This document shows positions 7,327 through 29,043 of a stretch of 64,000 nucleotides of DNA, piece after piece. The stretch lies in contig JABCZM010000002.1 of the NCBI GenBank assembly GCA_013289705.1, positions 78,848 to 142,847 on the forward strand, in the 5' to 3' direction. Position numbers and translations under genes: made by a program. Numbering within the stretch: position 1 is the stretch's first letter; every line of letters begins with the position of its first letter. This DNA comes from Candidatus Saccharimonadota bacterium (lineage in GTDB: Bacteria; Patescibacteriota; Saccharimonadia; Saccharimonadales; UBA4665). The notes under the pieces were generated by a model. That model saw only the letters and a list, made by a program, of their open reading frames with translations. It was not told where the DNA came from and did not search any database.

Positions 7327-8814
7327 TTAGTAAGTTGCTTGAATAGTGAACGAGCTTGGATCGATGCCATCTGCCGTGAGCTGTTGCTTGAATGTGTTTA
7401 CTGCGTCCGCATCGGTTGGATTAATCCCACCTGGCGGATACACTAGGTTTAATTGAAAGACGGGTTTCGTAATATTTATGTAAACCACGGTGTTAACAGC
7501 TGGGTTGTTGGCCAGGCTATTTGTTAGAAAGCTAGCTAATTTTTTGGTCGTCGATGTATCAAGGGATGGTTTCTGGCTTATTTTATATGCGTTGCCATTA
7601 CCTTTTGAGTCGAGTGTCGTATATATGACCGACCCGTCCTTCTGTAGGGCGATCGATGCGGGTGGTGTCTGTAAGTCGATTGCGAGGGCACTGGAAGAAT
7701 CGGTTGTGATGTCATACTGCCATAGGTTGTTCCCAGACGCGTACAGGAAAGTTGTGTTTGAATTCCAAACGGGACTAAGTGTGGTTGGTCTTGGTGGGCT
7801 TGCCACCAAGCTTGTCTGAAGGCTAGCATTATTTATGCTATATAGTTTGCTGTCCGCTTGTTGACGATACTTTGCTACTAACTGTTTGCCGTCTGGACTG
7901 ATCGATGCATCAACAAGCACGTCGCCTAATTGAAACGATTTTTTACTTTGTACGTCAGCCAAAACTGGATATACCAGGTATTTTTTGGCGTATGCTGGTT
8001 TTAAATCGGTCGAGCTGTACGGCATGGTTGTGTCAAAGGCTAGGAATCGATTTCCACCGTAGACTAGACGATTAAAGCGTGTTTGTAGGGTGGCGATTTT
8101 GACTGGATCACTATCGACCGAATCGTAATGATAGATTGTTTGATTAACGGACATGACAAAATCGCCATTGCGGGGATTTGAACCAAACAGTATCTGTTCT
8201 TGGTTCAGGTTTGAGGTGTCGATGCCAGTCATGCTAAGCGGCTCTGCATCGGTGCTGTCGCGGAAGTATGGATTACCATCGGCGGTAACAAATAGCTCGT
8301 GATTGTTTGGTAGCGGGCTAATCTGGGTCACTTGATTGGTTCCGGCTTCGTCTGCGGTTGGCAGCAACGGTGTGGTTAATCCATCTGTCGAAGTGCTTGT
8401 GAATACGCCAGCCGCAGCGTCTAGATAGTAAAGAGTATTATTTTCGATGGTTGGTTCTAGAGCTGCAGCATTTGTGACTAGGTCTGACGTGTCTGGTGGG
8501 GTGGGGTTGGTTGGGGCTGTGAATGTCTGGTTGTCTCGAAGACCGAGGTTGTAGTTTTTGGCTATCACTCCACCGTTGGGGGCTGTAACTTCGACGGTAT
8601 AGGTTCCAGGACTTACGCGGAAATGTTGGGCTGTGGAAGATTGGCTGGCAATTATATCGGTGCCACCTTCGTAAATTATGACCTTGCTTACCTGCCCTTC
8701 AATAGAAATAACCGGCCTGAGTACGAACAAATAAACAGCCTCTGCCCCGCCCGCCAATAATCCTGCCACGACAACAAAACCAATCAGGAATGTCTTAAAT
8801 CTTTTCATGTTCAT
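7327..8814 (-). CDS. Membrane-anchored propeller-like protein in the secretion cluster
   Basis: 495 residues. One N-terminal membrane segment (about residues 8-30, FLIGFVVVAGLLAGGAEAV) leaves the rest outside the cell. Residues about 35-90 resemble a PEGA-type beta domain (VEVTAPNGGVIAKNYNLGL). The remainder consists of repeated beta-strand blocks such as SPLPNNHELFVTADGNPYF and SISPDGKQLVAKYR, as in TolB/WD40-like propellers. No catalytic motif is seen. It overlaps the preceding gene by 20 bases and is the last gene of the minus-strand secretion operon; role unknown, perhaps a surface scaffold. Confidence 0.7.
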   Translation of the reverse strand: MNMKRFKTFLIGFVVVAGLLAGGAEAVYLFVLRPVISIEGQVSKVIIYEGGTDIIASQSSTAQHFRVSPGTYTVEVTAPNGGVIAKNYNLGLRDNQTFTAPTNPTPPDTSDLVTNAAALEPTIENNTLYYLDAAAGVFTSTSTDGLTTPLLPTADEAGTNQVTQISPLPNNHELFVTADGNPYFRDSTDAEPLSMTGIDTSNLNQEQILFGSNPRNGDFVMSVNQTIYHYDSVDSDPVKIATLQTRFNRLVYGGNRFLAFDTTMPYSSTDLKPAYAKKYLVYPVLADVQSKKSFQLGDVLVDASISPDGKQLVAKYRQQADSKLYSINNASLQTSLVASPPRPTTLSPVWNSNTTFLYASGNNLWQYDITTDSSSALAIDLQTPPASIALQKDGSVIYTTLDSKGNGNAYKISQKPSLDTSTTKKLASFLTNSLANNPAVNTVVYINITKPVFQLNLVYPPGGINPTDADAVNTFKQQLTADGIDPSSFTIQATY

Positions 8815-9256
8815 CTGCCTCGTATGTTAAGATTGGCACCTTTTGGCTGGTAAATTTCAGTGAAACATCGTAGAACTGCTCATTGCTGTCAATAAATAGG
8901 CCGAACAGTATTTGGTTATTCTTTTGATGGACGTTGGCGATAACGGGATCTCGGGACTCGAAGTGGCTCTGCGTATTGACAAACTGCTTTAGTGACGTGA
9001 GTGTGTCGCTGTATTCGGTGCTGCTCATTAGGTCACTGAGCGCAGTACTGTTTACGAACACCGGTCCTGTCGACGGAACTTCGAGCCCCTTGTTTGCATA
9101 AAATATGCCACTGACGCCACTGACACTTTCGGTGTAATTTACTTGGTCGAGCGTTGCACTGTTGCCAGGCTTGTGCAGTAGGCCGACCAACAAGCCGAGC
9201 ACAAGAACCCCAATAACAGCCACAACTCCCCACTGTTTTATTCTGTAATTTTCCAT
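8795..9256 (-). CDS. Small single-pass membrane protein of the secretion cluster
   Basis: 153 residues. A transmembrane segment at about residues 9-27 (WGVVAVIGVLVLGLLVGLL) is followed by an extracytoplasmic domain of about 120 residues with no cysteine and no motif I recognise. It overlaps both neighbours (19 bases with the hydrolase gene, 20 with the propeller gene), so it is translationally coupled within the operon. The architecture (short cytosolic tail, one helix, small soluble domain) recalls bitopic T4SS scaffold proteins, but that is only a guess. Confidence 0.65.
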   Translation of the reverse strand: MENYRIKQWGVVAVIGVLVLGLLVGLLHKPGNSATLDQVNYTESVSGVSGIFYANKGLEVPSTGPVFVNSTALSDLMSSTEYSDTLTSLKQFVNTQSHFESRDPVIANVHQKNNQILFGLFIDSNEQFYDVSLKFTSQKVPILTYEADEHEKI

Positions 9257-11700
9257 GCCGACTGTCCGTTATTTGTTAGCATATCCCAGCCCCAGGGTTG
9301 GTTGGTTGTTGTGAGGCTGGACAGATTATTGTTTGGGTCACTAATGAGGAACTGTTTTGTTGCTGGATTGTAGCCCCGAATAAGAATGAAGTGTCCCCCG
9401 CTCGTGAATGGAGTAGTGCCTTGGCCAGAAACACCCACAAGCGCTCCGCTAGTCACCGCATCGACGATTTGCTGTATTTCGCTCGTGGACATGCCAGCTG
9501 AGCTGTGTGCAAAGAGCTGAGTTATGTTTAGGCCGTATTTGTCTCCGATCTTTTGCCAGCCGTTTATATCCCAGGTTGTGCCGTCACCTGCCAGCCCGTC
9601 TTGTTGCCAGTCTGGTAAAAGTGTTTGCGGTGTTATGCTTGGGTCGTTTTTGAGTGTGGCAATTGCCATGGCTGTGCTGGTTAGCCCGCAGCCGCAGTGT
9701 CCAACTGTGTCGCACTGAGAAGAAAATGTTAGGTTTGCCCACGGTCCTTCATATTGGCTATAATAGATGCTTTTTGTGCAGATAATTCCTGGATCGGTTG
9801 GACAGCTAATGACGGCGGCGTTGTCGCCGGCACTGGCACTGAAGCCGGCCGATGTTCCGCAACCCGATCCACCAGAGGAATCTGTGGCGACAGCAGCATT
9901 GGTACTAACCCCGCTGCTGCCATTATTATATTTGGCAAGTAAATTATCGACATTAGTGCTGTTCTTGGTATCTGCGTCAGGGTCGCTTGCTCCTTCGTAT
10001 ATTCTCAGCCAATCGTGTGCCACGGCTTTGGCGTCCGTATCTGCGTTTATGGTGCTTAACAGTGTAGGATAGCTAGGAATTTCCTGTTTCATGAAATCTA
10101 ATTGCAGACCGAGGTCTGTCCATGGTTTGTTTTGTTTGTCTGCAAACGCCTGTAGGTTAGCCCATCTTCCCTCTTGCCACTGGGCAATACCGTGCGCGGG
10201 GCCTCCAATTGCGGTTGGGTCAATATTCGTGCCGGATTCGCGTTGCAAATTGGCAGTGACACCAATCGCCTGCGTAAAGCCCATTCCTATGTTGGTTTGA
10301 AGGTAATTTAGCACGGTTGCAACGTTGTTTGTGCCTGAAACAATATTTGTGCCGGCAGTGCAGCTGCAGTTAAGTCCACCACCACTCGTTGTTTGGTCGC
10401 TTGTACCGCCTGGTCCTCCCACGGTAGTGCCGGTGACGGCGGACTTGTAGGTTGCGATCTTTCCCAAAGAAGCGGTGACGGCTGACATTGCGCCTGGATT
10501 ACTCCCCACGGCTGTGTCGACAGCGGTCATAAATGTTGTTGGGTCTCCGGTGAGTGTCACGAGCGGCATGTTTACGCCGGCGCTGAGCGCTGTAACAAGT
10601 CGTGCCCCGTCGGTGTTGCCATCGGCTAGGGCTGGCTGGTTGCTGCCTGCATCAAGCGGCACGCCCAGGTCGTCCGACATGATGACACCTTGAAAATTAA
10701 TGCCCGTGCTACTTCGGACGTAATGTACTGCATCGGCGCTCTCGCTCACAGGCACCTTACCACCGTCCCATGCGTCAACATGTGCATTGCTGAACATGAT
10801 TGCGCCATTATCTTTGTTTGCGAGTGCTTGGTACGGTGATAGGTCGTTGGTTATGTCTGCAAGTTTTAATGGGTTCGTGGCGCTTCCAAGTGAATCTCCT
10901 GTTCCGGTGTCAGTGTTAACAGTAAGCTGGCCGATACCCGGGAAGTGTTTGTAGACTATGCCAATACCGGCACTGTTCACGCCATCCGCAAAAGCCCCCG
11001 CTTTGTCGATGATGTTTTGTGCGTCGCTACCCTCTGTTCCTCCTGTGCCAAATGAACGAGAGTTGTTAAAGTCGGTTGAGCCCAGGTTGTCGGCGTTATT
11101 AGTGTTTTCGCTATGGTAGGTGTCCAGTACCGGCCCGAGTAGTGTATTAATGCCGGCCGCTTTCAGTTTAGTGCCAACATCCGTGCCGGTGGCCTTGTCT
11201 TGATCGGCGGTAGCCTTGCCCATGGTGCCCCCGGATGGTTCGCTGCCGCTTGCCAAGAAGCGGTGTATGTCACCGCCTTCGTCATCACTCGTTATGAGCA
11301 GTGGTACCTTGGCTTCCTGTTGAAGGGCAGTAAAGTAAGAAGGGCTAAAATCTGTTGTATCGGCGTCGCCATGGAAGAATATGCCACCGATGTAAGGATG
11401 GTCGTGAACAAAGGCTGTAAGTGCTTGTGAGTCCGCCAAGCTCGCATCGCTAAAGCCGACGATGAGGGTCTGCTCTATCTGATCGGTTACGGCTGTTGGC
11501 ATGGTACTGTTTACGGTCTGGCTTGTGCCATCTGCGCTACATTGGCTAGCCTCGGTGTTAAAATAATAGATGCCTTCGGAGAATGCGTCTTTCTGTGCTT
11601 GAGAAATTGCGGAAACTTGCTGAGTTACAAGCAGCGTTATTGAGAAAAACAGCGCACAAGCCCTGCCTAAAGAGTTGTTCTTCGGCTTGAATCTATTCAT
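9238..11700 (-). CDS. Three-module peptidoglycan hydrolase: GH3 + phage-type lysozyme + C39-like peptidase
   Basis: About 820 residues with a signal peptide or anchor (CALFFSITLLVTQQVSA). Module 1 (about 60-370) is a GH3 NagZ-like fold: LIVGFSDASL, DDEGGDIHRF, GIVYKHFPGIG, VIMSDDLGVPL; the usual NagZ DSH dyad is not obvious. Module 2 (about 455-590) resembles the phage tail lysozyme domain: GFTQAIGVTANLQRESG then GPAHGIAQWQEGRW. Module 3 (last ~170) is papain-like, C39_2 type, with Cys in CGCGLTSTAMAI, His in GGHFILIRGY and Asp in LISDPNN. The start at 11700 is chosen because an upstream in-frame start would add 13 polar residues inside the previous gene. It probably plays the VirB1 role of opening the wall for the secretion apparatus, in an unusually elaborate form. 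Confidence 0.82.
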   Translation of the reverse strand: MNRFKPKNNSLGRACALFFSITLLVTQQVSAISQAQKDAFSEGIYYFNTEASQCSADGTSQTVNSTMPTAVTDQIEQTLIVGFSDASLADSQALTAFVHDHPYIGGIFFHGDADTTDFSPSYFTALQQEAKVPLLITSDDEGGDIHRFLASGSEPSGGTMGKATADQDKATGTDVGTKLKAAGINTLLGPVLDTYHSENTNNADNLGSTDFNNSRSFGTGGTEGSDAQNIIDKAGAFADGVNSAGIGIVYKHFPGIGQLTVNTDTGTGDSLGSATNPLKLADITNDLSPYQALANKDNGAIMFSNAHVDAWDGGKVPVSESADAVHYVRSSTGINFQGVIMSDDLGVPLDAGSNQPALADGNTDGARLVTALSAGVNMPLVTLTGDPTTFMTAVDTAVGSNPGAMSAVTASLGKIATYKSAVTGTTVGGPGGTSDQTTSGGGLNCSCTAGTNIVSGTNNVATVLNYLQTNIGMGFTQAIGVTANLQRESGTNIDPTAIGGPAHGIAQWQEGRWANLQAFADKQNKPWTDLGLQLDFMKQEIPSYPTLLSTINADTDAKAVAHDWLRIYEGASDPDADTKNSTNVDNLLAKYNNGSSGVSTNAAVATDSSGGSGCGTSAGFSASAGDNAAVISCPTDPGIICTKSIYYSQYEGPWANLTFSSQCDTVGHCGCGLTSTAMAIATLKNDPSITPQTLLPDWQQDGLAGDGTTWDINGWQKIGDKYGLNITQLFAHSSAGMSTSEIQQIVDAVTSGALVGVSGQGTTPFTSGGHFILIRGYNPATKQFLISDPNNNLSSLTTTNQPWGWDMLTNNGQSAWKITE

Positions 11701-12172
11701 TCTGTGCCAACATCTTATCTTGTACGGCTTGTGGCACACCTTCGGTCTGAAGGTCGTTAGCCGAAGACGTTAGGCTCGGCTCACTGACCAACGTTAGTGT
11801 AGCGCCATTCTGTCTTAGTACGATGAACTCATTAGGGCCTCCGGCGGCAGACACGGTCACTAGATACCAGCCGCTCACAACTTGCTCGCTCGAAACGATT
11901 GTAAAGCCACCGCTTTTTAGTGATGGGTCGATGCTTTCTGTTTTCACAACATTCGTGATGCTACTGTTGCTAGGGTTTGTTGGTGATATTTGGCCCTGGG
12001 TGCTAGTTTTTTCTTGAGATTGTGGTGCCGCGGCAGGACTGGCGCTAAATGTTATAACACCGGAGTTGGTTTTGTTGTCTTGCCGTGGGGTTCGATGCCG
12101 AGCTAGCGCTAGTCCGATAATGACTAGTAACAGGCACCCCGTTAAGACAATAAACACCATCCGCTTTCTCAT
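11693..12172 (-). CDS. Bitopic membrane protein of the secretion cluster
   Basis: 159 residues: an N-terminal transmembrane helix (about 5-24, MVFIVLTGCLLLVIIGLALA), a Ser/Thr/Gln-rich linker (about 30-75) and a small globular end (GGFTIVSSEQVVSGWYLVTV). The cysteine in the helix is not in a clear lipobox. It overlaps the next gene by 8 bases and abuts the previous one (TAATG-type junction), so all are cotranscribed. I do not recognise the family. Confidence 0.65.
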   Translation of the reverse strand: MRKRMVFIVLTGCLLLVIIGLALARHRTPRQDNKTNSGVITFSASPAAAPQSQEKTSTQGQISPTNPSNSSITNVVKTESIDPSLKSGGFTIVSSEQVVSGWYLVTVSAAGGPNEFIVLRQNGATLTLVSEPSLTSSANDLQTEGVPQAVQDKMLAQNE

Positions 12173-15100
12173 TATTGATCTCCCAGGTCAATGTGCTGGT
12201 GTGTGCAGGTGTCGCTAAAGAACGTAATGCCCTGTGGTGCGGTGATGTCCGTCCGTCCAGTGCATTCGTTTTGGCCCATTTCGCTACCGCTAGGCAGGAT
12301 AGAGGCCATGTAGACGTAAAAGTCGTGATCCAACTGCTGGTTGTCGCCAGAAGTTCCGGGTGTAAAGTTGGTGGATGTTCCTGTTGAAAGATCTGTGACG
12401 CCGCCTAGGTCGGACGCTCGGCCCTTGGGGTGTAGAAACTGATCGCAGCCATGCCCTGTAACAATGTTGTCTAGAAATAGTTTGTACTTTGTGGTTGCGG
12501 TCAGGATTGCTTGTAGCAGATTACCGTTGATTGAGATGGTTTTTCCACAGGTGTCACTATTGGTAATAGTTTGTCCTTGGCTGGTTGCCGTAAGGTCCTG
12601 GGTCACGCCCGGGTTTCCGGTTAGGTTGCTATCAGAGAGCAGTCGGGTTGCTATTTGTGCAGCCGAACCACCGGTGACTGGCGTAGACGAGGTACTGGCA
12701 GTATTCGCCGAGCTATCGAAACCGTCGTTTGTGCAAGCTTCGGTGTCGTTGAGCTGATCACAGGCATAGCCTTCCATGGTGTTGGTGTCGAAAATGAAGA
12801 ATCGAATACGTAGCCAGTTTGGGTCCGACTGGCTTGACTGATTACAGTTTGCATTAATATAATCTTCACTGTTTGGGTTGACTCCTCCCTCTCCAGACAC
12901 GCTTTCGCTATCAGGCTTGTCAACTGTTGTTACCATCCAGTTTCCGGCACTATCTTTCTGTATGTCGTCACCAAAACAGTCCTGAACCCTTTTTACGTAG
13001 GTGTCCTTTGCGCTTGTGTCGAGTATGTTTGTTGCCACATATTGTGCATTATCGTAGGGGTTTGCTACTAGCGGGTTGTTAAGGTCCTCAAGACTAAAGC
13101 CATATTCCGGAATACCAAGACCAGAAACACCATTGGAAGGTTGGGCTGCTTGTGCGTGTGGTAAAAGCGCTCCAAACATACTGCCGAGAGAACTGCCTAT
13201 ACGCATAAATCCGGTCGATAGATTGCCAAGTGTGTTAGCTACGTTTTGCCCTACGTTTGGATTTTGTGTGTCGATGAGACGACCCGCCAGCGATCGATAA
13301 TCTTTTGTATCAAACATACGGCTTGCAAAGCTTTCGGACTGGAATTGAGCATTGTCGTCTAGGTTTTGCTGATAGGCCAGTTCGTCTGTTTGTCCTTGGC
13401 TTAGCTGTGTACCCCCGTCTCCCCTGTTTGCACTGTTCGCCACTTCAACTGCACCGAGCGCATCGGCGTTACCCCCTGCTATTCCCTGGTGGGGTATGCC
13501 ACCAAGAGGATCATCGGTGAGAGCTTTTGTTATGCCCTGCACGATGTCTCCAATGGCGTAGCCTGCGGCAACGGACGTGGCTATCTGGAGGCTCTTACTT
13601 GCGAGTCCTCCGACCCCCGTGAGTAATAGTGCACCGCCAACAACCGCTTGGGTGAATTGACCAACGGTGCTACAGAAGTAGCCTACGCCGAACGCGTCTA
13701 AGCCTTTTTCAAGACTTGCGGCGGTTGTGCTTGGTGAAAACGCCTGTCCAAGAGTCGAGCTCACGGCTCCGCCGCTGGGATTTGTTACTCCTTCCAGATG
13801 TTGAATGCCGGCACTTTGCCAAGGTGTGCCGCCTTTGGAGTCGGTAAAATTATCCACTACCGCACCTACATCTTGCTCACTCACATCTTGGCCAGCCATA
13901 ATTTGTCCCCCGATTGCCAGTGCATCTCCGGCTGATTTCATGGCGGGAACAACTACGTTCAGCCGATTTATTTCGGGAACAGCATGAGCAATTTCTTTTA
14001 CGCTACAGAGCACAGCGGTGGCTATTAATGTGCCGCCCACTCCTTTTCCTATGCCACTCGTTTTGTCTCTAAATTCTGTAATTTTTGCTTTCATTTCATC
14101 AGATGGCGTAAGAAGCTTTCCTAGCCGACTCTTCTCGTCTCCGTCAGCTTGCGCTTTTGCCTGCTTTGCGGTGATTTTATCTGCTATTTTCTGGTCAGTC
14201 TTGAGAGCAAGTTTTCGTAGCGGGTGGAGCCAGTTTGGTAAGCCTAACCGTTTGGTGAGTGTCCTAAATCTGGCAAAGCTTGAAATTTTGCCCAAGCTTT
14301 GATCGTCGACGAACCCGCCAATAATGTTCCTTTTAGCGGAGGTTTTTATATCCGAAACATCGACAGTGTAACTGGTGCTGCCTCGCACGAGGCTCACCCC
14401 TTTTGTTATTCTTGCTGGGTCTATTCCGTTGTCGGCCGCAATCGCTGCCTTTGCCTCGTCTGGATTCATACCGGCATATTTAGAATTTTCGGTTTCGATC
14501 GTGAACTTCTGGAATTGCCCAGTCTTGGGGTCCGGGGTGACTGTGATGCCTCGATCTGCAAAATCCGCTACGATTTTTTTATTTAATTTGCTCCCAAGAA
14601 AGCCTAAACGGGTTTCCCCAATATCTTTCGTTTTAGCCCAGCGTATTAGCTTTCCTACCTCGCTGGTGCTGGCGGTTTGCTGGTGCTCCGCAGGCTTCCC
14701 TAGAGTTTGTGCGTAGTGTATAAGTTCCAGGGGTCCAAGTGACAAAGAACCGAAAAGAAAACCACCTCCAATGAGTAGGCCTACAATGCCACCGATTGTG
14801 CTGTTTTTCTTGGTTAAACTTCTCGTAAGTAATTTACTAAATCTTCCGGCGGGGCTTGCATTACCAATGTCGGCTAGCTTACCTGCAACGCCGCCAATGT
14901 CTTTTGCGGGATTATAGAGGCCATTAACGGCGCTTGCTTCTGGGCTAGCACCTTCAGCTACTGCGGTCCCCCCAATTCCGCCAGCACCAGCACCTGCTTC
15001 TTCTGCACCATCAAGCTTTGATGGGCTAACAGCTTCCCCATCGTTTGGGTTATAGAAGCCACCTGTGGTTTCGCCGCCGCTACTTGACGCGCTTTCGGTG

Positions 15101-18282: not shown

Positions 18283-18320
18283 GTCTAGTATTGCCCGCCC
18301 CCGTCCACCGGACAAAATAG

Positions 18321-20322: not shown

Positions 20323-21585
20323 CTAGGGCCCCCAATATCCAGGACTATGAGGTCCAATCGTAGGTGCAGGTGCTGGACCTGGTGCTACACCTGGTGCAGG
20401 AAGAGGTATTGCGTAGGCATTCAGGTCGTTTCTAAGATTGACATCGGCTTCAATTTGCCTGACTCGGGCCTTAGCCTCCTGAGTGTTTTTGTACGCGCCA
20501 CCATCTGCTGTTGCGTATCCTGGCTGACCGCTAGCGGCGGCGCCCGCAGTTGCTGCCTTGGTCTGGTCGCCTGCAGCGAAATTCCGCAAGTTGTTCGCTG
20601 AGTTGGCTGCATTTTTACGAACTTCTTCATTGTGGACAAAAGTGCCACCAGTATCTTTTCTGAAGGCTTCCTGTATCGAGTTAAATTGGGTCTCAAAGCT
20701 CCCTTCTGTCAATGCAATTTGGTCGTAGGCTTTCGAGTTGGCGGTTTCTTTTAGGTGTGACTTCCAGTCGTAGCCATCCATACCGGCTGGTTGTACGAGC
20801 TGCCCACGCTCTCCTTCGAGCTTAAAGCGGCGCATGTCGGAACGAATACCCTTATATGGTATGGCGATGCCCTGCCATTTGCCGGTCGCGGTGTCCTTGT
20901 CCATGCCCATTTCATTGGCCATAAACTTGTAATCTTCCCATGCGTTGTCTTGCTCCTCTTTTGTCCCAGAATCGGCTTTTTCTAGGACGCGGCTGAAGGC
21001 ACCAATCTTTTGGTCTGGCGTGCTAAAGTGCTTGTTTGCAGCCCGTATTTCAGATTCAGTATGCCACGCACCGTCTGCAGAAGCCCACTGGTCATGCCCG
21101 CTATCATTGCCCGCCGTACCAGCCGCCCGATAGCGCTTAGGGTCACCACTCTGCCTTAGGGCAGCTAGTCTTTTAGGTGAAATGGTTGCAGCACGAACAA
21201 AGCCATCGTGACCATAATCGTTAGTGGTTTTCATGTGCTGCATAGATTTTTGTATATTAGCTGCTTGTCGGTCATAAATTGCTGGGCCACCACCAATCAT
21301 GCGGCTAGCTCTACCCAAGCCGAACCTGCGGTTGCCATTTCGTGTCTGGAACTGTGCCCGGCTTTCTACCACGCCTGCTCCTAACTTGGTTCTAACACGG
21401 TTGCGTAAACTGTTCTGATCGTTGGGGTTCCCCAGTATTCCCTGGTGGGCTTTTTTGCCATAGTTTGTGAGCAGGTCATGAGTCCTTCCCAAGATTCCGC
21501 CGGCAATTTTAAAAGCGTACGGAATAAGCAACAGCGGCGCGAGCATAGCAATGATGGTTACATAGATTGCGACTAGGTCTTTCAC
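20323..21585 (-). CDS. Secretion-cluster protein with N-terminal membrane helix
   Basis: 420 residues. A hydrophobic N-terminus (LVAIYVTIIAMLAPLLLIPY, about 4-23) is followed by a basic, mostly helical soluble region and a Pro-rich C-terminus (PLPAPGVAPGPAPAPTIGP). It overlaps the VirB6-like gene by 4 bases (ATGA), so the two are coupled. In other Gram-positive-type systems the gene next to virB6/trbL can encode an accessory of the channel. No enzymatic motif is visible. Confidence 0.65.
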   Translation of the reverse strand: MKDLVAIYVTIIAMLAPLLLIPYAFKIAGGILGRTHDLLTNYGKKAHQGILGNPNDQNSLRNRVRTKLGAGVVESRAQFQTRNGNRRFGLGRASRMIGGGPAIYDRQAANIQKSMQHMKTTNDYGHDGFVRAATISPKRLAALRQSGDPKRYRAAGTAGNDSGHDQWASADGAWHTESEIRAANKHFSTPDQKIGAFSRVLEKADSGTKEEQDNAWEDYKFMANEMGMDKDTATGKWQGIAIPYKGIRSDMRRFKLEGERGQLVQPAGMDGYDWKSHLKETANSKAYDQIALTEGSFETQFNSIQEAFRKDTGGTFVHNEEVRKNAANSANNLRNFAAGDQTKAATAGAAASGQPGYATADGGAYKNTQEAKARVRQIEADVNLRNDLNAYAIPLPAPGVAPGPAPAPTIGPHSPGYWGP

Positions 21586-23849
21586 GACAAGATATTCCCC
21601 ACAACAACAGACATAATGTTACCAAGCGCGAACAGCACGGTAATAATAGGATATACCAGTAAGGCCTTAAACAGCGCGTCCCACCACTTTTTGAAGTATT
21701 GTTCGGTGTTGGGCAGGCAGTACATGGCGAACGCAACCGGCGATACGGCTACCAGAAACACAATCAACGCCTGTCTTATTAATATGGTAAGCATTATGGC
21801 GAAGAGTATCAATATGGCTGGTAAGAGTACGAACACCGCAAATAATGCTGCAAGTTCGGGGATTATGCCCGATATGGCCCAGCCACCCAAGATCGCGGCG
21901 CCCCAAGCTAATGTCGAACCTCCAACCGTGACATTAAGCTGAAAGCCGCCAGATTGATGGAAAGGTGCTTGCAGGAGCTCTCGTAGTCCTCCTCCTGCGA
22001 CGTTCATGATATCCACGAGCGCAGCAACTATATAGAAAGAAAGATTTACAAGTATTCCGGCAATGAGTATTCTCGGCAGAACTTTCTTGGCGGTATATGC
22101 GTCAATTAGGCCGCCACCTATTGATTCGCCAAAGACAATAACAAGCAAAGCTATAACCAGAAAGGCATCTCCATAAACCCTAAAACTAGACCATGCCACA
22201 AAAATTTCGCTCGGATCACCAGCGGCGTTTTTAACAGTTAAAGGGTTTACTACCAGCAGGGGCGTAATAAAATTATTGTACAAACCATCTATGCTCGTAG
22301 CGAGCAAGTTAATACCCTGGCATATAATCCATGACAAGGGGAACCCACTACTTTCACATGTTGGCTTACTGGTATCGCTACAGTTCGGAGTTGTAGAAGT
22401 GCCGCACGCTCCTCCGATTGGAGCTGAAGTACTACTGTCCTCGATATAAATCTGTACGTTTGCTCTGCCATAGGCCGCACAGCCACTCTCGTTAATGCTC
22501 AAATTCCAGACGGCACTGACTGTGCTACCGGTCGTGGCGTTGGCCAAGCCACCTGGAATACTGAAAGACGGCCTGGCATTATCGCCCTGGCAGCCACTAC
22601 CACCCGTGGCTATGTAGTAATCCGTTGCGGTTGGGTCAGAGGCGTCATAGGGTTGGTCGATGACTTCTGTCTCATGGTTGTCGCCATTGCTGAAAATTGT
22701 CTGTATTTTCTTGTCTTTTGCCCAATAGTTTGCGACCAGGTTGTACGCGCCTTTATCTACGTTAAGCACGCTTTCCACTTGAAGGTTATTGACATGGCTA
22801 TTATGTAGATTGAACGTTGCGTTTGAATAGCCGCTAAAAGTGTTCATCTTATTGGCAAAATCGGATACCTTATTCAGGGTCAAGTTATCGTCCTTTATCG
22901 TGATGCTTGTGTACTCCTGGCTGTTGTCGTTGTATGTGGGCAGTGTTGGATCGAACAATGGTGCTGTTGTCATCGCGTATGTCTCGTGATCGTTACCATC
23001 CTTTCCCCATTTTTGCAATACAAACTGGGCACCGGCAAAGCTTATGGTACTCTGGTTTATATACTTAGCCGCATACTGTGCGTTGTTGCTAAAATATGTC
23101 AGGCAGTCTTGGAGTTGCTTGCTGTTATTGGTTACTTTGGAAAGTAAGCCACCCGTTGGGCACTTGTCACTGTTTCCACCAGCAATGGCACCACTAGTAA
23201 ATCGTGTAGCATCAAAGTTGTTGATGCCCATATTGGATACGGTCTTGCCGTCTATAGGATTATTAAAACTAATAGTCTGACTCGAGATGTCAACCCTTGC
23301 AGCCAGGAAATCAAAAATACAAACGTGGCCGAAAGTGTCACGATTATCACATTTTCCTTCCGTAATAAATCCATAGAATTGTAAAGGATCCGTTTTTGAC
23401 TGTAGCAGCAGTGCTGACTGCTTGCATTGCTTGCTATTATTAGCAGAGTCAAAGGTAATGATGGTGTACTGATTATTGGGGTCATTGGTACCCTTGAAAA
23501 CGTCCTTAAGGCTACTAGGTACTGGATGGCTACTTGTGTTATTGATGCTAGAACGTAGGTCATTTGTACCGTCTGTGCCACCATCTAGGCCATCGTAAGT
23601 TGCGTTGGAGTCCTGAATGAACATGTTGTTCTTTTGTGTCGCATCAATGACGCTTGTGGTGCCTCCCTGGAGTTCGGCATAACAGCTGTAGCCCGTTTTC
23701 TTGTCTAAGAGCGCAAGCGGTTGTTCGGTCTTTGAGCCGGCTGCATGGGCTATCTGAGCGGGGAACGATGTCAAGATACTCGAAGTGAGCAGGATAGCTA
23801 GTACCATGAGCCACTGCCAACGAATTGATTTTATAACTTTTTTCATCAC
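21582..23849 (-). CDS. VirB6/TrbL-like polytopic channel protein with large extracellular N-domain
   Basis: 755 residues. Signal sequence at the start (WLMVLAILLTSSILTSFPAQ, cut near AHA). Residues about 40-500 are a secreted-looking, Cys-containing domain. From about 505 six to seven hydrophobic helices follow, including VYGDAFLVIALLVIVFGESI, ILIAGILVNLSFYIVAALVD and ALIVFLVAVSPVAFAMYCLP, the layout of VirB6/TrbL. A Pro-containing CLPNTEQYFKKWWDALFKAL matches the family C-terminal region. It would form the inner-membrane translocation channel fed by VirB4. Overlaps both neighbours by 4 bases. Confidence 0.8.
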   Translation of the reverse strand: MMKKVIKSIRWQWLMVLAILLTSSILTSFPAQIAHAAGSKTEQPLALLDKKTGYSCYAELQGGTTSVIDATQKNNMFIQDSNATYDGLDGGTDGTNDLRSSINNTSSHPVPSSLKDVFKGTNDPNNQYTIITFDSANNSKQCKQSALLLQSKTDPLQFYGFITEGKCDNRDTFGHVCIFDFLAARVDISSQTISFNNPIDGKTVSNMGINNFDATRFTSGAIAGGNSDKCPTGGLLSKVTNNSKQLQDCLTYFSNNAQYAAKYINQSTISFAGAQFVLQKWGKDGNDHETYAMTTAPLFDPTLPTYNDNSQEYTSITIKDDNLTLNKVSDFANKMNTFSGYSNATFNLHNSHVNNLQVESVLNVDKGAYNLVANYWAKDKKIQTIFSNGDNHETEVIDQPYDASDPTATDYYIATGGSGCQGDNARPSFSIPGGLANATTGSTVSAVWNLSINESGCAAYGRANVQIYIEDSSTSAPIGGACGTSTTPNCSDTSKPTCESSGFPLSWIICQGINLLATSIDGLYNNFITPLLVVNPLTVKNAAGDPSEIFVAWSSFRVYGDAFLVIALLVIVFGESIGGGLIDAYTAKKVLPRILIAGILVNLSFYIVAALVDIMNVAGGGLRELLQAPFHQSGGFQLNVTVGGSTLAWGAAILGGWAISGIIPELAALFAVFVLLPAILILFAIMLTILIRQALIVFLVAVSPVAFAMYCLPNTEQYFKKWWDALFKALLVYPIITVLFALGNIMSVVVGNILS

Positions 23850-24277
23850 TTTTTTGTACTCGACGTGTCACTAGTATTATATACTGGGTTGCTTACAAAT
23901 GACCAGACCTTATAGCCGCTCGACCCCTCTTTTTCGAGTGTTACTAAGAACTCGTAACTCCCCTTTGTACCTTGGATACTGTACGTCATGACTTCACGAC
24001 CATCGACGATGGTCTTTGATATGTAGTGTGGCTTTTCACCTTGAAAGAATATATGTAGCTGCAAAACAGATTCTGCCCATTCACCACTACTCGTCTGCTG
24101 CATCGCCGAAGCGGTAAACAGTTTGTACGTTTCCGATGGTTTGTTTGCCAAGGCGAGATGCACGAATTGGTCGCTAACCGAAAGGTCTGCAGGCTTAAAG
24201 ATTGTCTTCGACACAAAAGTAATGGCTGTTATTAGGCCAATAACTAAAACTAAGGCTATCACCAACTTGCGCCGCAT
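23846..24277 (-). CDS. Membrane-anchored NTF2-like protein (possible VirB8 counterpart)
   Basis: 143 residues. One N-terminal helix (about 4-23, KLVIALVLVIGLITAITFVS) and a ~110-residue outer domain whose helix-then-curved-sheet pattern (SETYKLFTASAMQQ; YSIQGTKGSYEFLVTL; YKVWSFVSNPVY) fits an NTF2-like fold. VirB8 has this same topology, so it may be the VirB8 scaffold; this is inference from layout. First gene of the operon with the VirB6-like gene, and divergent from the pilin row. TACAAT (24290-24285) ends 7 bases before the ATG. Confidence 0.6.
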   Translation of the reverse strand: MRRKLVIALVLVIGLITAITFVSKTIFKPADLSVSDQFVHLALANKPSETYKLFTASAMQQTSSGEWAESVLQLHIFFQGEKPHYISKTIVDGREVMTYSIQGTKGSYEFLVTLEKEGSSGYKVWSFVSNPVYNTSDTSSTKK

Positions 24278-24344: not shown

Positions 24345-25464
24345 CTGACCCACCTGCACTTTAACGAGTTGCTGAACCTAAAAAGGTTTTGGTACCTTAT
24401 TTGTGTCGTCAAAAACATAAACAAGGAAACCAAAACCATGGATATTGTACGGGCTAGTGCCCAGTTTTTACAAACCGTTACGCCAGTATTTCCCCGTAAG
24501 GTGCGCGGTCTGGTAACGTTTGGCTACCAAGCCTTGAGCTTGCAGCGCATACAGAGCGTCAACAGCAACGCGAGAAGTGTTAACCTGAACCGTAAAACGG
24601 CCGAGAGTAGGGCCTACCGGTTAGCTAAATCCCAGCTACTCCGTCAGGCATTTCCAAGGCTCATTGACAAACTTGGTCTGGTACAGAACGGCGACCACAT
24701 CGCCGTTGACTTCAGTGACTTTGGTATTGTCCAGGCGCTCATGTTTGCGAAACGTACTGACGGTGGCCGGGCTTTGCCAATCTGGTTCAAGGTCTTGCCC
24801 TACGGTTGGACAAAAGAAACCAGCCAGAACGCATGGGTTAACCAAGCTATTAGTGAGTTCATGGAGACGGTGGGCGTACACGTGATGTTAGTCTTTGATC
24901 GTGGCTTTGCAGCACCAACCATTGTTGAATACCTGTGTCGGCAGGATATATTGTTTGTCGTACGTATTAAAGGCGACAAGAAGGTGCTCGGCCGCAAAGG
25001 GGGCACCAAAGCTCGCTGGCTGCCAGCCGGGCTGCACCCCGTGTGGCTGTACGGCAACAGGCTCAATCTGGTCGTAACACCAGAACCGGACGGTGACAGC
25101 GAACCGTGGTATTTGGTAACCAACAACCTGGGCCTGACCACCGAAACGGTAACCATTATCTACTACCACCGATTTGAGATTGAGGAAGTGTTTAAAGATG
25201 CCAAACATCTGTTTGGCCTGGAGTACATCCAGTTTAAGCTACCCGAACGATTAACGACGATACTGTGGTTTGTGTGCCTGGGCTTTTGGTTACATGACTA
25301 CCTTGAACGAACAATTGTGAGCAGTAGGACAGTAGTACAAAAAGCCAAACAAGGCCTCGTCCAAAGCCGCACCCATTACTGGTTAGAGCAGATTAAGCAT
25401 GCCTTGCAGGCTGAAGCCTTGGCAACGATTGCTGGAGCAGGTCGTTAAAGTGCAGGTGGGTCAG
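24345..25464 (+). mobile_element. IS4-family insertion sequence, complete
   Basis: 1120 bases. The left end starts CTGACCCACCTGCACTTTAA and the right end is its reverse complement; the inverted repeats match over at least 23 bases (to ...ACGA) with partial matching beyond. Flanked by an exact 9-bp duplication (CTGATTTCC). One open transposase gene fills it, so the copy looks intact and recently inserted. It sits in the divergent promoter region between the NTF2-like/VirB6 operon and the first pilin gene. Confidence 0.93.
24438..25448 (+). CDS. IS4-family transposase (DDE)
   Basis: 336 residues. Cuts and pastes its element using an RNase H-like DDE site. First Asp in HIAVDFSDFG, second Asp in VMLVFDRGFA, and Glu within YYHRFEIEEVFKDAK, which fits exactly the IS4 signature Y-2-R-3-E-6-K. 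The frame is open further upstream, but that part would lie across the inverted repeat and outside the element; the ATG at 24438 with AAGGAAA before it is inside. It stops 16 bases before the right end. Confidence 0.93.
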   Translation: MDIVRASAQFLQTVTPVFPRKVRGLVTFGYQALSLQRIQSVNSNARSVNLNRKTAESRAYRLAKSQLLRQAFPRLIDKLGLVQNGDHIAVDFSDFGIVQALMFAKRTDGGRALPIWFKVLPYGWTKETSQNAWVNQAISEFMETVGVHVMLVFDRGFAAPTIVEYLCRQDILFVVRIKGDKKVLGRKGGTKARWLPAGLHPVWLYGNRLNLVVTPEPDGDSEPWYLVTNNLGLTTETVTIIYYHRFEIEEVFKDAKHLFGLEYIQFKLPERLTTILWFVCLGFWLHDYLERTIVSSRTVVQKAKQGLVQSRTHYWLEQIKHALQAEALATIAGAGR

Positions 25465-25473: not shown

Positions 25474-25533
25474 TTCTTGTCTTTTACGGAAAGTTATTCC
25501 ATAATGTCAGCAGAAGTCTAGTTACAAAAGAAC

Positions 25534-26394
25534 ATGAAAAAAATAAATATGCACCTCGCGGGCTTGCGATCTAGCCATAAACTCCTCTCCCCTCTTGTGA
25601 TTTTACTTGTGGTTTTTGGGGTCATGGGTCTTGTGCCGCAAAAAGCTTTTGCAGCAGATCCCGGGACTTGCGTTGTTACTGTGGAGCAAGGTGCGACGGT
25701 GAGCAAGGTCGGAAAATGTACTGATTACGTTAGTAATCCAGACGGTAACGGTGTAGCGGTTGACCCTACAAAGTGCTACGAGTTAAGCCAGCACAACGGG
25801 ACGGGAACCGTCACCAAAGAGGTTGCGTGTAGTGATGTTACTTCGTCGGGTCTGGCTGGAGTGCCTGATCCAACAAATTGCCCTGCCGGTCAGATTTATG
25901 GTAACGCCGCAGGCAAATGTATTGAAAATACATTTGGGTGCGTCGAAGAGTCAGGGGCAAGATACGATGAAATTGACGGTTGCGTGTATTCCGCTAGTGC
26001 ATTGGATACGCCAACAACTGTAACTTGTCCCGATGGATCAACGGCGGTGGCGCTAAGTGCCTGCCCTCCTTCCAAAAATCCTGAGTCTGGACCTGCCGGT
26101 GACACTTGTGGCGATCCGCCAATTGTAACAGCGATAAACTTTGGCTGTTCGCACAAGGGTAATCCCATCCTGGATCTTACCTTCGCCATTATTCGTTTTC
26201 TCTCTATCGGTGTCGGATTTGTTATAGTGGGTTCCATGATATGGGCTGGAATCCAATACACAACTTCTCGAGGTGACCCGAAGGCAACGGCTGAAGCGAT
26301 TGGGCGAATCCGCGCTAATGTCTTTGCTCTTTTGTTGTTCGTGTTTGCTTACGCTATATTAAACTATCTTATTCCGGGGGCGATTCTTAAGTGA
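25534..26394 (+). CDS. Pilin-like protein with Cys-rich N-terminal domain (pilin row 1)
   Basis: 286 residues, the largest of seven tandem pilin-like genes. Signal peptide (LLSPLVILLVVFGVMGLVPQ, cleavage near AFA-AD), a ~170-residue outer region with about twelve cysteines, then a C-terminal two-helix TrbC/VirB2-like unit: FLSIGVGFVIVGSMIWAGIQ, a short TSRGDPKATAEAIGRIRA loop, and LLLFVFAYAILNYL. The fusion of a disulfide-rich head to a pilin body suggests a tip subunit. It is the first gene after the insertion sequence, so its original promoter region has been displaced. Confidence 0.7.
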   Translation: MKKINMHLAGLRSSHKLLSPLVILLVVFGVMGLVPQKAFAADPGTCVVTVEQGATVSKVGKCTDYVSNPDGNGVAVDPTKCYELSQHNGTGTVTKEVACSDVTSSGLAGVPDPTNCPAGQIYGNAAGKCIENTFGCVEESGARYDEIDGCVYSASALDTPTTVTCPDGSTAVALSACPPSKNPESGPAGDTCGDPPIVTAINFGCSHKGNPILDLTFAIIRFLSIGVGFVIVGSMIWAGIQYTTSRGDPKATAEAIGRIRANVFALLLFVFAYAILNYLIPGAILK

Positions 26395-26774
26395 TGACGA
26401 ATTTCTTTTTGCGTTTTGGTACGGCAAATGTTCCTTGTGGGGATGGTAAGGGCTTCTTAGGTTTCCCTACCTGGTATCATTATCTTAATAGCATATCAGA
26501 TGCCTCTGCTGCTAAAACTTGTGTGCCACAAATCACCGGTATAAATGATATCTGGCTGATTGTGGCCGCGGTTATAGAGATACTGCTGAGAGTTGGAGTG
26601 TTGGTTGCGATTGGTATAATCATTTACGCCGGCTTTCAGTACGTTACGAGCCAGGGAGAGCCAGATAAGACCACTCAAGCCAGAAAAACAATCATTAATG
26701 CTGTCATTGGCCTAGTTATAACCATCTTCGCCGCCGCCATAGTCAATTTTTTGGCAGGGAGTTTCTCCTCGTGA
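26394..26774 (+). CDS. TrbC/VirB2-like pilin subunit (pilin row 2)
   Basis: 126 residues. Unlike its neighbours it lacks an obvious signal peptide; it starts MTNFFLRFGTANVPCGDGKG. Two helices, IEILLRVGVLVAIGIIIYAG and VIGLVITIFAAAIVNFLAGS, flank the conserved loop TSQGEPDKTTQARKTI. This hairpin is the form of VirB2/TrbC pilins. Start ATG overlaps the previous stop (TGATG). Confidence 0.7.
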   Translation: MTNFFLRFGTANVPCGDGKGFLGFPTWYHYLNSISDASAAKTCVPQITGINDIWLIVAAVIEILLRVGVLVAIGIIIYAGFQYVTSQGEPDKTTQARKTIINAVIGLVITIFAAAIVNFLAGSFSS

Positions 26775-27082
26775 TCGGTAATCTGGTTCTTCTGCTAGCC
26801 AGTGTGGCCGTAAAAGGTAATTGCGACACTGATTGTAGCACGGGCTTGCCGGGAGTAGAGGCTAGTAGTGTCAATGTACAGCAAATAATACAAATTGTCT
26901 TAGCTTCACTTGCGGCAATTGCCGTCCTCATTATCGTATTGGCCGGATTGAAGTTCGTAACCTCTCAGGGTGATCCGCAAGGCGTCGCCAAGGCTCGCCA
27001 GGCTATAATCTTTGCCTTAATTGGACTAGCCGTCGCGGTGAGCGCCGAAGCTATCGTAACGTTTGCATTGGGGCAAGCATGA
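26771..27082 (+). CDS. TrbC/VirB2-like pilin subunit (pilin row 3)
   Basis: 103 residues, the smallest of the row. Starts at GTG overlapping the previous TGA (GTGA). N-terminal hydrophobic segment, a Cys pair (NCDTDCSTG), then the pilin hairpin: ASLAAIAVLIIVLAGLKF, loop TSQGDPQGVAKARQAI, and ALIGLAVAVSAEAIVTF. The loop motif GDP-VAKAR is shared with the next genes. Confidence 0.7.
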   Translation: MIGNLVLLLASVAVKGNCDTDCSTGLPGVEASSVNVQQIIQIVLASLAAIAVLIIVLAGLKFVTSQGDPQGVAKARQAIIFALIGLAVAVSAEAIVTFALGQA

Positions 27083-27510
27083 TGAGAAAGAGGCTTCAGG
27101 TATTGATACTTGCCTTCTTGCTGCTTTCACCTACTGTGGCGAGCTTTGCTACTTCATCAGTAAGTGCAGCCTCACTTAATCTGTTTGATGGTATATGTAA
27201 TGGGCCTGATGGAAATAAGACGGGTACTGATGCAAGTCAGACCGATATTTGTAACGAAGAAAAAAACGCCGGCAAAGGCAAGACAAATCCAGTTATCACC
27301 GGGCTCAAAATAGCCATCACCATCACCTCCATCATCGTAGGCATATCGTCGGTCATAGTCCTCATCATCTCCGGTATGAATATGATCACCGCCAACGGTG
27401 ATGCGCAGAAGGTTGCTAAAGCTCGCACGAGCATCATCTATGCCCTAGTTGGCCTTGTTGTGACGGTGCTAGCAGTAACGGTAGTGGCCTTTGTGCTCAA
27501 TAAGGTCTAA
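27079..27510 (+). CDS. TrbC/VirB2-like pilin subunit (pilin row 4)
   Basis: 143 residues with a signal peptide (VLILAFLLLSPTVASFATSS), a polar region with a Cys pair, and the hairpin IAITITSIIVGISSVIVLII / TANGDAQKVAKARTSI / YALVGLVVTVLAVTVVAFVL. Overlaps the previous gene by 4 bases (ATGA); the five-gene block from row 1 to row 4 is tightly coupled. Confidence 0.72.
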   Translation: MMRKRLQVLILAFLLLSPTVASFATSSVSAASLNLFDGICNGPDGNKTGTDASQTDICNEEKNAGKGKTNPVITGLKIAITITSIIVGISSVIVLIISGMNMITANGDAQKVAKARTSIIYALVGLVVTVLAVTVVAFVLNKV

Positions 27511-27530
27511 GATTAAATGGAGAATACGTT

Positions 27531-28001
27531 ATGATGACGCGAAAAATAAAGTATCTTACACTCAGTTTGCTTGCGGCGCTCAGTATTGGCCTCTGTGCTG
27601 CACCGTCTTTAGTGTCGGCTACGCCAACTGATTTTAAGGGCGATGCTTGCTCAGGCGTGAACTCGCTGCAGGATTCTACCTCCACTACCTGTGCTACCAA
27701 TGGTGGCACGGCCATTAATAACATTCTAACTCTAGTGATCAACATTTTCTCGGCTATCGTTGGTTTCACGGCGGTCATTATGATGATTATCGCTGGTATG
27801 AAGTTTATAACCGCCAACGGTGATGCTAATGCCGTCAGTGCGGCTCGACAGACCATTATCTACGCTTCCGTTGGACTGGTGATTGTGGTCTTCGCACAGC
27901 TGCTTACGCACTTTATCTTGCAGCGAACGTCAACAGCGGGACTTTGTACTGTTGGCGCCAACGCCGGTAAGGTTCAGGGTTCAGACCCTGCCTGCAAGTA
28001 A
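27531..28001 (+). CDS. TrbC/VirB2-like pilin subunit (pilin row 5)
   Basis: 156 residues. Signal peptide (LLAALSIGLCAAPSLVSA), Cys pair (CSGVNSLQDSTSTTC), hairpin LVINIFSAIVGFTAVIMMII / TANGDANAVSAARQTI / YASVGLVIVVFAQLLTHFIL and a short tail containing two more cysteines. GGAG lies 10 bases before the ATG. The VGF(T/I/V)AV core is nearly identical in rows 5-7, pointing to recent duplication. Confidence 0.75.
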   Translation: MMTRKIKYLTLSLLAALSIGLCAAPSLVSATPTDFKGDACSGVNSLQDSTSTTCATNGGTAINNILTLVINIFSAIVGFTAVIMMIIAGMKFITANGDANAVSAARQTIIYASVGLVIVVFAQLLTHFILQRTSTAGLCTVGANAGKVQGSDPACK

Positions 28002-28070
28002 CGTGATTTGAATAGTGACGCCGTATTGTGCTATAGATATAAACTGAAAGAAAGGTAAACATATAAACTT

Positions 28071-28487
28071 ATGAAACGACTCAAAGAACTTTGTCTAACG
28101 CTCGGTATATTGGGCCTTGTGGCCGCTCCATTTGCCTTCACCGCTTCGGCATCTGCGGCCTTGGACCTCCAGGGTGGTGTGACGTGTGGTACAAACGGTG
28201 ACGTATCTGGCACGGGAACGTGTGCTACCGTGCAGGGCAATCCGGGTAAGAGCGTGAGCGACATTTTGGCGCTTGTTATTAACATATTGTCCGTTATTGT
28301 CGGTTTCATTGCGGTTATCATGATTATTGTTGCCGGTATTCGCTACATTACCTCCGGTGGCGAGTCGAGCAATGTGGCGACTGCTAAAAATACAATTATC
28401 TATGCCGTTATTGGTCTGGTGATTGTGGTCTTCGCACAGATCCTGGTTCACTTTGTGCTCAAGCAGACCTCTAATGTTGGTAAGTAG
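28071..28487 (+). CDS. TrbC/VirB2-like pilin subunit (pilin row 6)
   Basis: 138 residues. Signal peptide ending near ASASAA, Cys pair (CGTNGDVSGTGTC), hairpin LVINILSVIVGFIAVIMIIV / TSGGESSNVATAKNTI / YAVIGLVIVVFAQILVHFVL. GAAAGG ribosome site 12 bases upstream. Its loop and second helix match row 7 almost residue for residue. Confidence 0.75.
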   Translation: MKRLKELCLTLGILGLVAAPFAFTASASAALDLQGGVTCGTNGDVSGTGTCATVQGNPGKSVSDILALVINILSVIVGFIAVIMIIVAGIRYITSGGESSNVATAKNTIIYAVIGLVIVVFAQILVHFVLKQTSNVGK

Positions 28488-28581
28488 GTATCGTAGTAAA
28501 TAATAGATCACTATAGAGTCTATCGGCTTGAATAACGTTAGCTCCATGTGATATAAGTAAAAGAAAGTAACGAAAGGTAAT

Positions 28582-29043
28582 TTGATGCTTAAGAAGTTAA
28601 AAGATTTTTGTTTCGCGCTTGGCGTGTTTAGTTTGGTCGCAGTACCGGTTTTGATACCTGCTGCAGTTTCTGCCGATATTGCTGGCCAGCTCTGTAGTGG
28701 TGCCAACGCTAACAACCCAAGTACTACCCTTGATCTTACTGGTAACGGCGACGCAAGCTGTGCAAGTGACACATCAGGCAGCGGTAGCTCTATCCAAAAG
28801 GTTCTGTCGCTTATCATCAACATCTTCTCGATTATCGTTGGATTTGTTGCTGTCGTGATGATTATCTTTGGTGGTATTAAGTACATTACCTCCGGTGGTG
28901 AGTCGAGCAATATCTCTGGTGCCAAGAATACGATTGTCTACGCCATTATTGGCCTAGTGATCGTTGCTTTGTCGCAGGTGCTCGTGCACTTCGTGCTTGC
29001 CAAGACCGCAGCTACAACTTCTGGCAGCGGTTCAGCTGGCTAA
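28582..29043 (+). CDS. TrbC/VirB2-like pilin subunit (pilin row 7)
   Basis: 153 residues. Signal peptide (LGVFSLVAVPVLIPAAVSA), Cys pair (CSGANANN...GDASC), hairpin LIINIFSIIVGFVAVVMIIF / TSGGESSNISGAKNTI / YAIIGLVIVALSQVLVHFVL, and a Ser/Gly-rich tail. CGAAAGG precedes the ATG. Last gene of the pilin row; a strong terminator follows at 29069. Confidence 0.75.
   Translation: MMLKKLKDFCFALGVFSLVAVPVLIPAAVSADIAGQLCSGANANNPSTTLDLTGNGDASCASDTSGSGSSIQKVLSLIINIFSIIVGFVAVVMIIFGGIKYITSGGESSNISGAKNTIVYAIIGLVIVALSQVLVHFVLAKTAATTSGSGSAG

Follow-up and report, generated by a model that had tools for sequence, protein, structure and literature searches.

The closest described relatives of the system studied here are the type IV secretion systems (T4SSs) of Patescibacteria. 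In the available parts of the report on S. epibionticum, transposon sequencing (Tn-seq) found the T4SS and its pilins to be essential, the system was placed closest to Gram-positive conjugative T4SSs and was described without recognizable coupling or relaxase proteins, and protein export or another role was proposed (PMC10633639). A phylum-wide analysis, in the sections accessible to us, describes a VirB4 clade nested in MPF-FATA and lying close to dnaA; the type IV coupling protein (T4CP) gene is usually far away from virB4, relaxases are rare, the pilin genes form arrays of 2–11, VirB8 is almost confined to ABY1, the lysozyme and peptidase genes that follow virB4 are essential, and nucleotide synthesis is often missing in the phylum (PMC12102498). 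Here we analyzed a 64,000-nucleotide stretch (the window) of a Candidatus Saccharimonadota genome, corresponding to positions 78848–142847 of contig C2 in a 1.24-Mb assembly of 13 contigs that is 97.4% complete. The window holds a T4SS gene cluster between positions 7327 and 29043. We propose, with a probability of about 0.7, that it is a fixed chromosomal, MPF-FATA-like (Gram-positive-type) T4SS of Saccharimonadia that works as a contact-dependent, wall-opening exporter.

The cluster is the already published Patescibacteria T4SS. As far as the accessible parts of both papers describe the S. epibionticum system (SEML1_0006–0019; PMC10633639, PMC12102498), the two share VirB4, TrsD, PrgI, VirB6, a pilin array, a position near dnaA, a lysozyme and a peptidase downstream of virB4, a T4CP outside the cluster and no relaxase. 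The window differs in its GH3–lysozyme–C39 hydrolase, its split VirB6 and an insertion sequence (IS) between the blocks. This likeness is judged from sequence identity and order-wide matches rather than from a rebuilt clade tree. An earlier note on this DNA had overstated its novelty, since the missing coupling and relaxase proteins and the export proposal already appear in the available text of PMC10633639; its suggestion of a contact-dependent episymbiont device agrees with the Tn-seq essentiality given there.

With MPF-FATA systems (pCF10, pIP501 and CD1110 types) the cluster shares a VirB4 above the CD1110 cut-off, PrgI, a TrsD-like protein and VirB1-like hydrolase domains. In pCF10, the gene for the hydrolase PrgK follows virB4; in the window, too, a hydrolase gene comes after virB4. 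Unlike MPF-FATA conjugation systems, the cluster has no T4CP or relaxase, carries pilins and exchangeable heads, and occupies a fixed chromosomal site.

Motor, channel, pilins and chromosomal place

The predicted motor, channel and pilin genes form two divergent blocks:

15362..17281, minus strand: VirB4 ATPase (Pfam TraG P-loop, E 1.9e-27; NCBIfam conju_CD1110)
17281..18315, minus strand: TrsD-like protein, the N-terminal half of a VirB4 (NCBIfam TrsD)
18321..19550, minus strand: PrgI (VirB3-like) with a long low-complexity tail (Pfam PrgI, 4.1e-11)
20323..21585, minus strand: C-terminal part of VirB6, with the last membrane segments and a cytoplasmic tail (alignment to the VirB6 of locus L056)
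21582..23849, minus strand: VirB6/TrbL-like polytopic membrane protein, main part (relatives' matches, alignment)
23846..24277, minus strand: anchored NTF2-like protein, candidate VirB8 (predicted fold, weak matches)
24345..25464, plus strand: insertion sequence encoding a DDE transposase, bounded by 29-bp inverted ends and flanked by a 9-bp target duplication, CTGATTTCC
25534..26394, plus strand: pilin-like gene 1 (T4SS_pilin, under cut-off)
26391..26774, plus strand: pilin 2 (T4SS_pilin)
26771..27082, plus strand: pilin 3 (T4SS_pilin)
27079..27510, plus strand: pilin 4 (T4SS_pilin)
27531..28001, plus strand: pilin 5 (T4SS_pilin)
28071..28487, plus strand: pilin 6 (T4SS_pilin)
28582..29043, plus strand: pilin 7 (T4SS_pilin)

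The two-chain VirB4, PrgI, VirB6-like channel, seven pilins and divergent arrangement named in the earlier note are thus borne out by Pfam and NCBIfam and by relatives. VirB4 scores 351.3 bits against conju_CD1110 (NF045971), above the cut-off of 325, and its best plasmid matches lie in actinobacterial and bacillus-type organisms at 30–37% identity. In NCBIfam the TrsD-like protein scores under cut-off against both TrsD (2.1e-7) and conju_CD1110 (7.7e-5), the latter over the N-terminal end of the model.

To assess conservation, we compared 88 loci, comprising 80 Saccharibacteria-type records and 8 further loci; L128–L135 and L137–L140 were left out as the same records as loci already included. 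Across these loci, many of them truncated at contig ends, TrsD was found in 87, PrgI in 81, the scaffold protein encoded after VirB4 in 72, VirB6 in 66, recF in 61 and the wall hydrolase in 48. At least two pilins occur in 53 of the 58 loci with at least 9 kb of upstream sequence, in 55 of these loci every pilin gene lies on the opposite strand, and most loci have five to seven. Synteny is maintained throughout the set, so the arrangement is not due to chance. In searches of 196 genomes of the order, a VirB4 match was present in 180, and the window VirB4 is 73–89% identical to the relatives listed.

The cluster is bordered by two conserved neighbors:

1966..5871, plus strand: dnaA–dnaN–recF, the fixed chromosomal neighbor (Pfam, synteny)
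29222..29713, minus strand: Hsp20 chaperone gene, the other border (family in 38 of the 88 loci)

A PIN/MazE pair follows recF on the way to the cluster. Where the downstream sequence extends for 8.5 kb or more, recF or dnaN is present in 49 of 50 loci. This fixed site, together with the occurrence of VirB4 in 180 genomes as opposed to 40 of 196 with candidate relaxases of family PF13814, supports the view that the cluster is a fixed chromosomal system and not a mobile conjugative element.

The main VirB6 protein itself has no Pfam match; two of its five scanned relatives match TrbL under cut-off (8.5e-4 and 7.3e-3). The shorter frame aligns to residues 755–1126 of the single-frame L056 VirB6. 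The two window frames overlap by 4 bases, the second resuming 14 residues further on in that alignment, and VirB6 is likewise divided at a similar loop in L079 and L105. Gene fission appears more likely than a sequencing error. VirB6 varies elsewhere in the set as well. Clusters L142, L143, L144 and L146 (families f33 and f34) each carry two VirB6-like genes of 840–1099 aa, and in L111, L112, L115 and L116 VirB6 lies downstream of VirB4 and not upstream of PrgI. The VirB6 at L087:3794–7066 has at its end a Peptidase_S74 domain, an endosialidase-type chaperone that is unusual for a T4SS channel protein.

The NTF2-like protein was modeled at low confidence (pLDDT 65.6) as one N-terminal helix followed by a helix/sheet domain. 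The model has no fold match at E ≤ 0.001; its best match (Z 7.1) is to a designed protein, and its similarity to pIP501 TraM (Z 6.0, 3.6 Å over 90 residues) is tied by unrelated NTF2 folds. A profile built from four relatives matched 27 of the 196 genomes at E ≤ 0.01, with strong matches only in G000, G070, G045 and G137, the genomes of the alignment members themselves. Among the other 23, a match that shares the contig of VirB4 and lies no more than about 6 kb upstream of it is seen only in G015 and G017. Because matches are so rarely near VirB4, the published statement that Saccharimonadia lack VirB8 stands for most members.

The IS, absent from the earlier description of the cluster, is complete and single-copy in the genome, and its 29-base ends differ at 2 positions. 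It lies just under 70 bases from the start codon on either side and thus sits in what must have been a shared promoter region.

Wall enzymes and C-terminal heads

Two wall enzymes are encoded downstream of VirB4:

12172..15309, minus strand: scaffold protein adjoining VirB4, 1045 aa (alignments, predicted fold)
9238..11739, minus strand: three-module secreted wall hydrolase with a GH3 N-acetylhexosaminidase, a phage tail lysozyme and a C39-like peptidase (Pfam)

The three modules of the hydrolase, proposed earlier from the sequence, correspond to three Pfam domains (Glyco_hydro_3, 2.2e-26; Phage_lysozyme2, 1.6e-23; Peptidase_C39_2, 1.3e-14); the NCBIfam model PRK05337 falls under its cut-off. 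The scaffold protein has a low-complexity N-terminus, hydrophobic stretches, a fairly conserved body (residues ~150–790) and a C-terminal head (~880–1045). Compared over 70 complete relatives and the window protein, this body is moderately conserved and the end poorly so.

The head is predicted to take a LAS/M15 peptidase fold. In the window protein it has no Pfam match, and no M15-type Pfam match above cut-off was found in it or in seven head-group relatives scanned at E ≤ 0.1, where L085 gave HH_signal at 0.059 (under cut-off) and L057 two irrelevant weak matches. A sequence profile searched against the PDB returned weak Hedgehog matches only (best E 0.066). The structural model (pLDDT 80.4) aligns best to MepA, to Zn DD-peptidase, to Hedgehog and to M15 endolysins, at Z 7.5 to 5.5. 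Above Z 5, all or almost all of the matches listed are LAS peptidases or Hedgehog, with Z below 8 throughout and a best Foldseek E of 0.02. All 10 aligned sequences keep the putative zinc-ligand positions H110, D117 and H189 (H-x6-D ... H). The M15-like tail suggested earlier is therefore upheld by the predicted fold and these three positions, and not by Pfam.

We scanned the C-terminal 400 residues of 64 scaffold proteins (the window and 63 others). Matches, which may overlap in these counts, comprised VanY (16), M23 (7), GDSL (3), M14 (2), Amidase_2 (2) and Exo_endo_phos (2), with one each for a phosphoesterase, a beta-lactamase-type domain and M74; many stretches had no match. L144, outside the 64, has an NlpC/P60 match just under cut-off. 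In 10 of 71 proteins fewer than 60 residues follow the body, and in 5 of 71 there are 60–120. The gene or genes between the scaffold and recF show a comparable range. Among 80 of 82 listed proteins scanned (L100:16031–16987 and L147:16735–17961 were left out), we found Phage_lysozyme2 in 32, M23 in 13, GDSL in 11, C39_2 in 10, SLT_2 in 7, Amidase_3 in 6, SLT in 6, NlpC/P60 in 5 and GH3 in 4.

Close relatives can carry unlike heads. Among 14 pairs whose bodies are at least 40% identical, the heads align at z < 5 in 8 and at z ≥ 10 in 5. Heads are unlike in L048 and L071 despite 55% body and 92% VirB4 identity, and in L057 and L069 despite 53% and 88%. The reverse also occurs: L048 and L102 have bodies only 34% identical, yet their heads agree at 122 of 195 residues and both match Amidase_2, and head scores of 265 or more go with bodies only 12–15% identical in at least 15 pairs. 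In an all-pairs sample (n=150), body alignment was clear (z ≥ 10) for 72 pairs and failed (z < 5) for 48; since the body itself is often unalignable between distant pairs, low head similarity there proves nothing, and the comparison was drawn from the close-body pairs and the reverse cases. No counts were drawn from an early clustering of heads, in which a common linker had grouped dissimilar heads together. These patterns suggest that heads and bodies evolve independently and that the wall-cutting enzymes are interchangeable modules, which is apparently new. VirB1 homologues with added M23 and LysM domains are described in the available text of PMC12102498. In the passages of open full-text literature examined on Patescibacteria or Saccharibacteria secretion, peptidoglycan hydrolases, VanY and endolysin shuffling, no description of head exchange was found.

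Transfer genes elsewhere and the function of the cluster

None of the 20 cluster proteins scanned for domain families matched a T4CP family or a relaxase. The earlier claim that a coupling protein is missing holds for the cluster but not for the genome, which encodes full-length T4CP-like ATPases on C5 (904 aa), C11 (891 aa) and C3 (1062 aa), with a fourth, shorter and weaker candidate on C1; a T4CP query matched 194 of the 196 order genomes. Its claim about relaxases stands for the cluster. Genome-wide, where PF03432 and PF13814 were the relaxase families searched, PF03432 gave no match. PF13814 (MOBC-type; the MobC relaxase family in the accessible text of PMC5357655) gave five open reading frames (ORFs), one of them on C11 and one of the other four under the family cut-off. 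The VirB11 search that the note had suggested returned four PF00437 proteins above cut-off (368–601 aa), which are encoded on C3, C4 and C8 and all lie outside the cluster.

VirB4 matches of this genome occur on C2 and C11 only, and the C11 match belongs to a second, compact T4SS. The right end of C2 (C2:171926–175097; L012:11927–14920) encodes a pair of pilin-type proteins, of which the second also matches TrbL, together with a PrgI-type protein and a TrsD-like fragment; the end of C11 (L002:14658–19629) encodes a VirB4 36% identical to that of the window, a CHAP protein and a T4CP. The two ends share no sequence, so their assignment to one operon rests on gene order in G146, G142, G187 and G106 (L207–L210), where VirB6-type, PrgI, TrsD, VirB4, CHAP and T4CP genes form a contiguous run. 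In G146 and G142 this system has PF13814 genes no more than about 10 kb away; in the genome studied here, each half has one at a distance of up to about 3 kb. This second T4SS resembles the window cluster in VirB4, TrsD (28% identical), PrgI, pilin and a CHAP wall enzyme, and differs in being compact, with its own T4CP and PF13814 genes nearby, which assign the linked T4CP and relaxase candidate to the second system. In L208, copper-type metal genes seem, as read from the sequence, to adjoin the second T4SS.

The C5 locus (L010:2–12435) contains a T4CP, a PF13814 gene and a serine recombinase within about 13 kb and no VirB4, and it looks like a mobilizable element without a channel of its own. 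Its gene content is the same as that of the streptococcal integrative and mobilizable element (IME) class 8 (VirD4, MobC PF13814 and serine integrase, as given in the accessible part of PMC5357655); the host here is a Saccharibacterium, and the likeness is in gene content alone, with no flanking repeat found. Around nine C5-class T4CPs examined, PF13814 is nearby in six (this genome, G137, G192, G033, G057 and G191) and a serine recombinase in four (this genome, G137, G033 and G188); in G188 a PF13814 gene lies about 11 kb from the T4CP, beyond the stretch examined. In this genome and in G137 (L169/L202) the recombinase is near tRNA-Gln(CTG), beside which the C5 recombinase ends. Searches for flanking direct repeats gave one 12-base, chance-like match at the C5 locus and none at the C1 recombinase locus. 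A serine recombinase at L011:1414–2994, which overlaps a tRNA-Glu (1380–1454) and has a PF13814 ORF 6.5 kb away, marks a second possible integrated element.

The C3 T4CP (L163:8742–12778) has two small upstream genes and adjoins gyrB/gyrA (names read from sequence), as in G034 (L167). By breadth of occurrence alone, C3-class T4CPs are candidate unlinked partners of the window T4SS. The DNA-transfer genes of this genome appear to belong to separate, mobile-looking loci, which looks new; in the full-text literature, only the review PMC12857230 was found to combine Saccharibacteria with integrative or mobilizable elements. As the linked T4CPs and relaxase candidates belong to these other loci, the cluster is unlikely to be a mobile conjugative element, in agreement with the earlier note. 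The T4CP and relaxase genes found elsewhere therefore do not refute the note in the way it had foreseen, by a VirD4 plus relaxase whose conserved linkage would make this an ordinary conjugative element.

The domain content of the cluster, the essentiality of the system in a relative and the diversity of the heads point to a contact device with lytic heads, which we read as an exporter whose heads are fitted to the host. We hypothesize that VirB4, TrsD, PrgI and VirB6 assemble into a membrane motor and channel, and that the divergent pilin array forms the filament for contact. The wall-cutting enzymes would be carried by the protein encoded after VirB4 and by the product of the next gene, both in the functional place of VirB1/PrgK in plasmid systems. 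On host contact the lytic heads would open the thick wall locally, breaching the partner as the earlier note envisaged, and the channel would export substrates, possibly fed by an unlinked T4CP-like ATPase. A cultured Saccharibacterium needs its T4SS in order to grow. If the heads track host wall chemistry, they would offer sequence-readable host-range candidates in uncultured Patescibacteria.

Several points weigh against this proposal. No substrate is known; the near-universal T4CP-like ATPases mean that DNA export may occur; and the hydrolases could act on the epibiont's own wall. The position of the IS casts some doubt on normal expression of the cluster in this strain. In the available text of PMC12857230, VirD4- and VirB8-like parts are listed at the S. 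epibionticum locus, contrary to PMC10633639 and PMC12102498 as far as those were accessible. Finally, some genomes pair this T4SS with a T4CP–PF13814–recombinase locus and have no other VirB4 match. In one of them, the single-contig genome G137, the one VirB4 match is the chromosomal T4SS.

The G137 arrangement suggests that the chromosomal channel may be borrowed by elements that bring a T4CP, a PF13814 relaxase and a serine recombinase of their own; if such an element transfers, this channel is the only one visible there. If this is true, a chromosomal T4SS still moves DNA. It is possible, though we put it forward tentatively, that the cluster is a polymorphic wall-penetrating injector, with host-fitted heads that recombine between lineages and small elements that use its channel for DNA transfer. 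The heads would then be peptidoglycan peptidases, amidases and glycosidases, with esterases and phosphoesterases for other layers.

A chiefly adhesive role, in which the hydrolases merely let a pilin filament through the epibiont's own wall, would fit the five to seven pilins of most loci and a T4SS without a linked T4CP. We regard it as unlikely, because the heads include enzymes other than peptidoglycan hydrolases (GDSL, phosphoesterase, Exo_endo_phos) and differ between close relatives, which a self-wall role would not need. Import of host DNA or nucleotides, as by the archaeal T4SS-derived Ced/Ted importers, seems slightly less probable still. The nucleotide synthesis gaps of the phylum would be consistent with it, as would weak matches of the CedB and CedD models to VirB4 and of CedD to the T4CP-like proteins; these matches are far under the model cut-offs and reflect the common ATPase domain, no Ced-specific part was found (none was looked for), and direction is not readable from sequence. 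An ordinary conjugative element with scattered parts is very improbable: full-length T4CP-like ATPases on C5, C11 and C3 and five PF13814 ORFs exist, but the C11 T4CP is part of the second T4SS (contiguous in four relatives), the C5 T4CP sits with a PF13814 gene and serine recombinase, the C3 T4CP adjoins gyrB/gyrA, the window cluster keeps one chromosomal place, and PF13814, one of the two relaxase families searched genome-wide (the other, PF03432, had no match), occurs in only 40 of the 196 genomes of the order.

Accessory genes of the cluster

Three further genes lie among or beyond the wall enzymes:

8795..9256, minus strand: small anchored protein (no relatives in the 88 loci)
11693..12172, minus strand: small anchored protein (one relative in the 88 loci)
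7327..8814, minus strand: membrane-anchored protein at the operon end (family in 9 of the 88 loci; no Pfam family)

Beta-propeller Pfam models match relatives' proteins from the same gene interval as 7327–8814, and the window protein may itself contain a beta-propeller.

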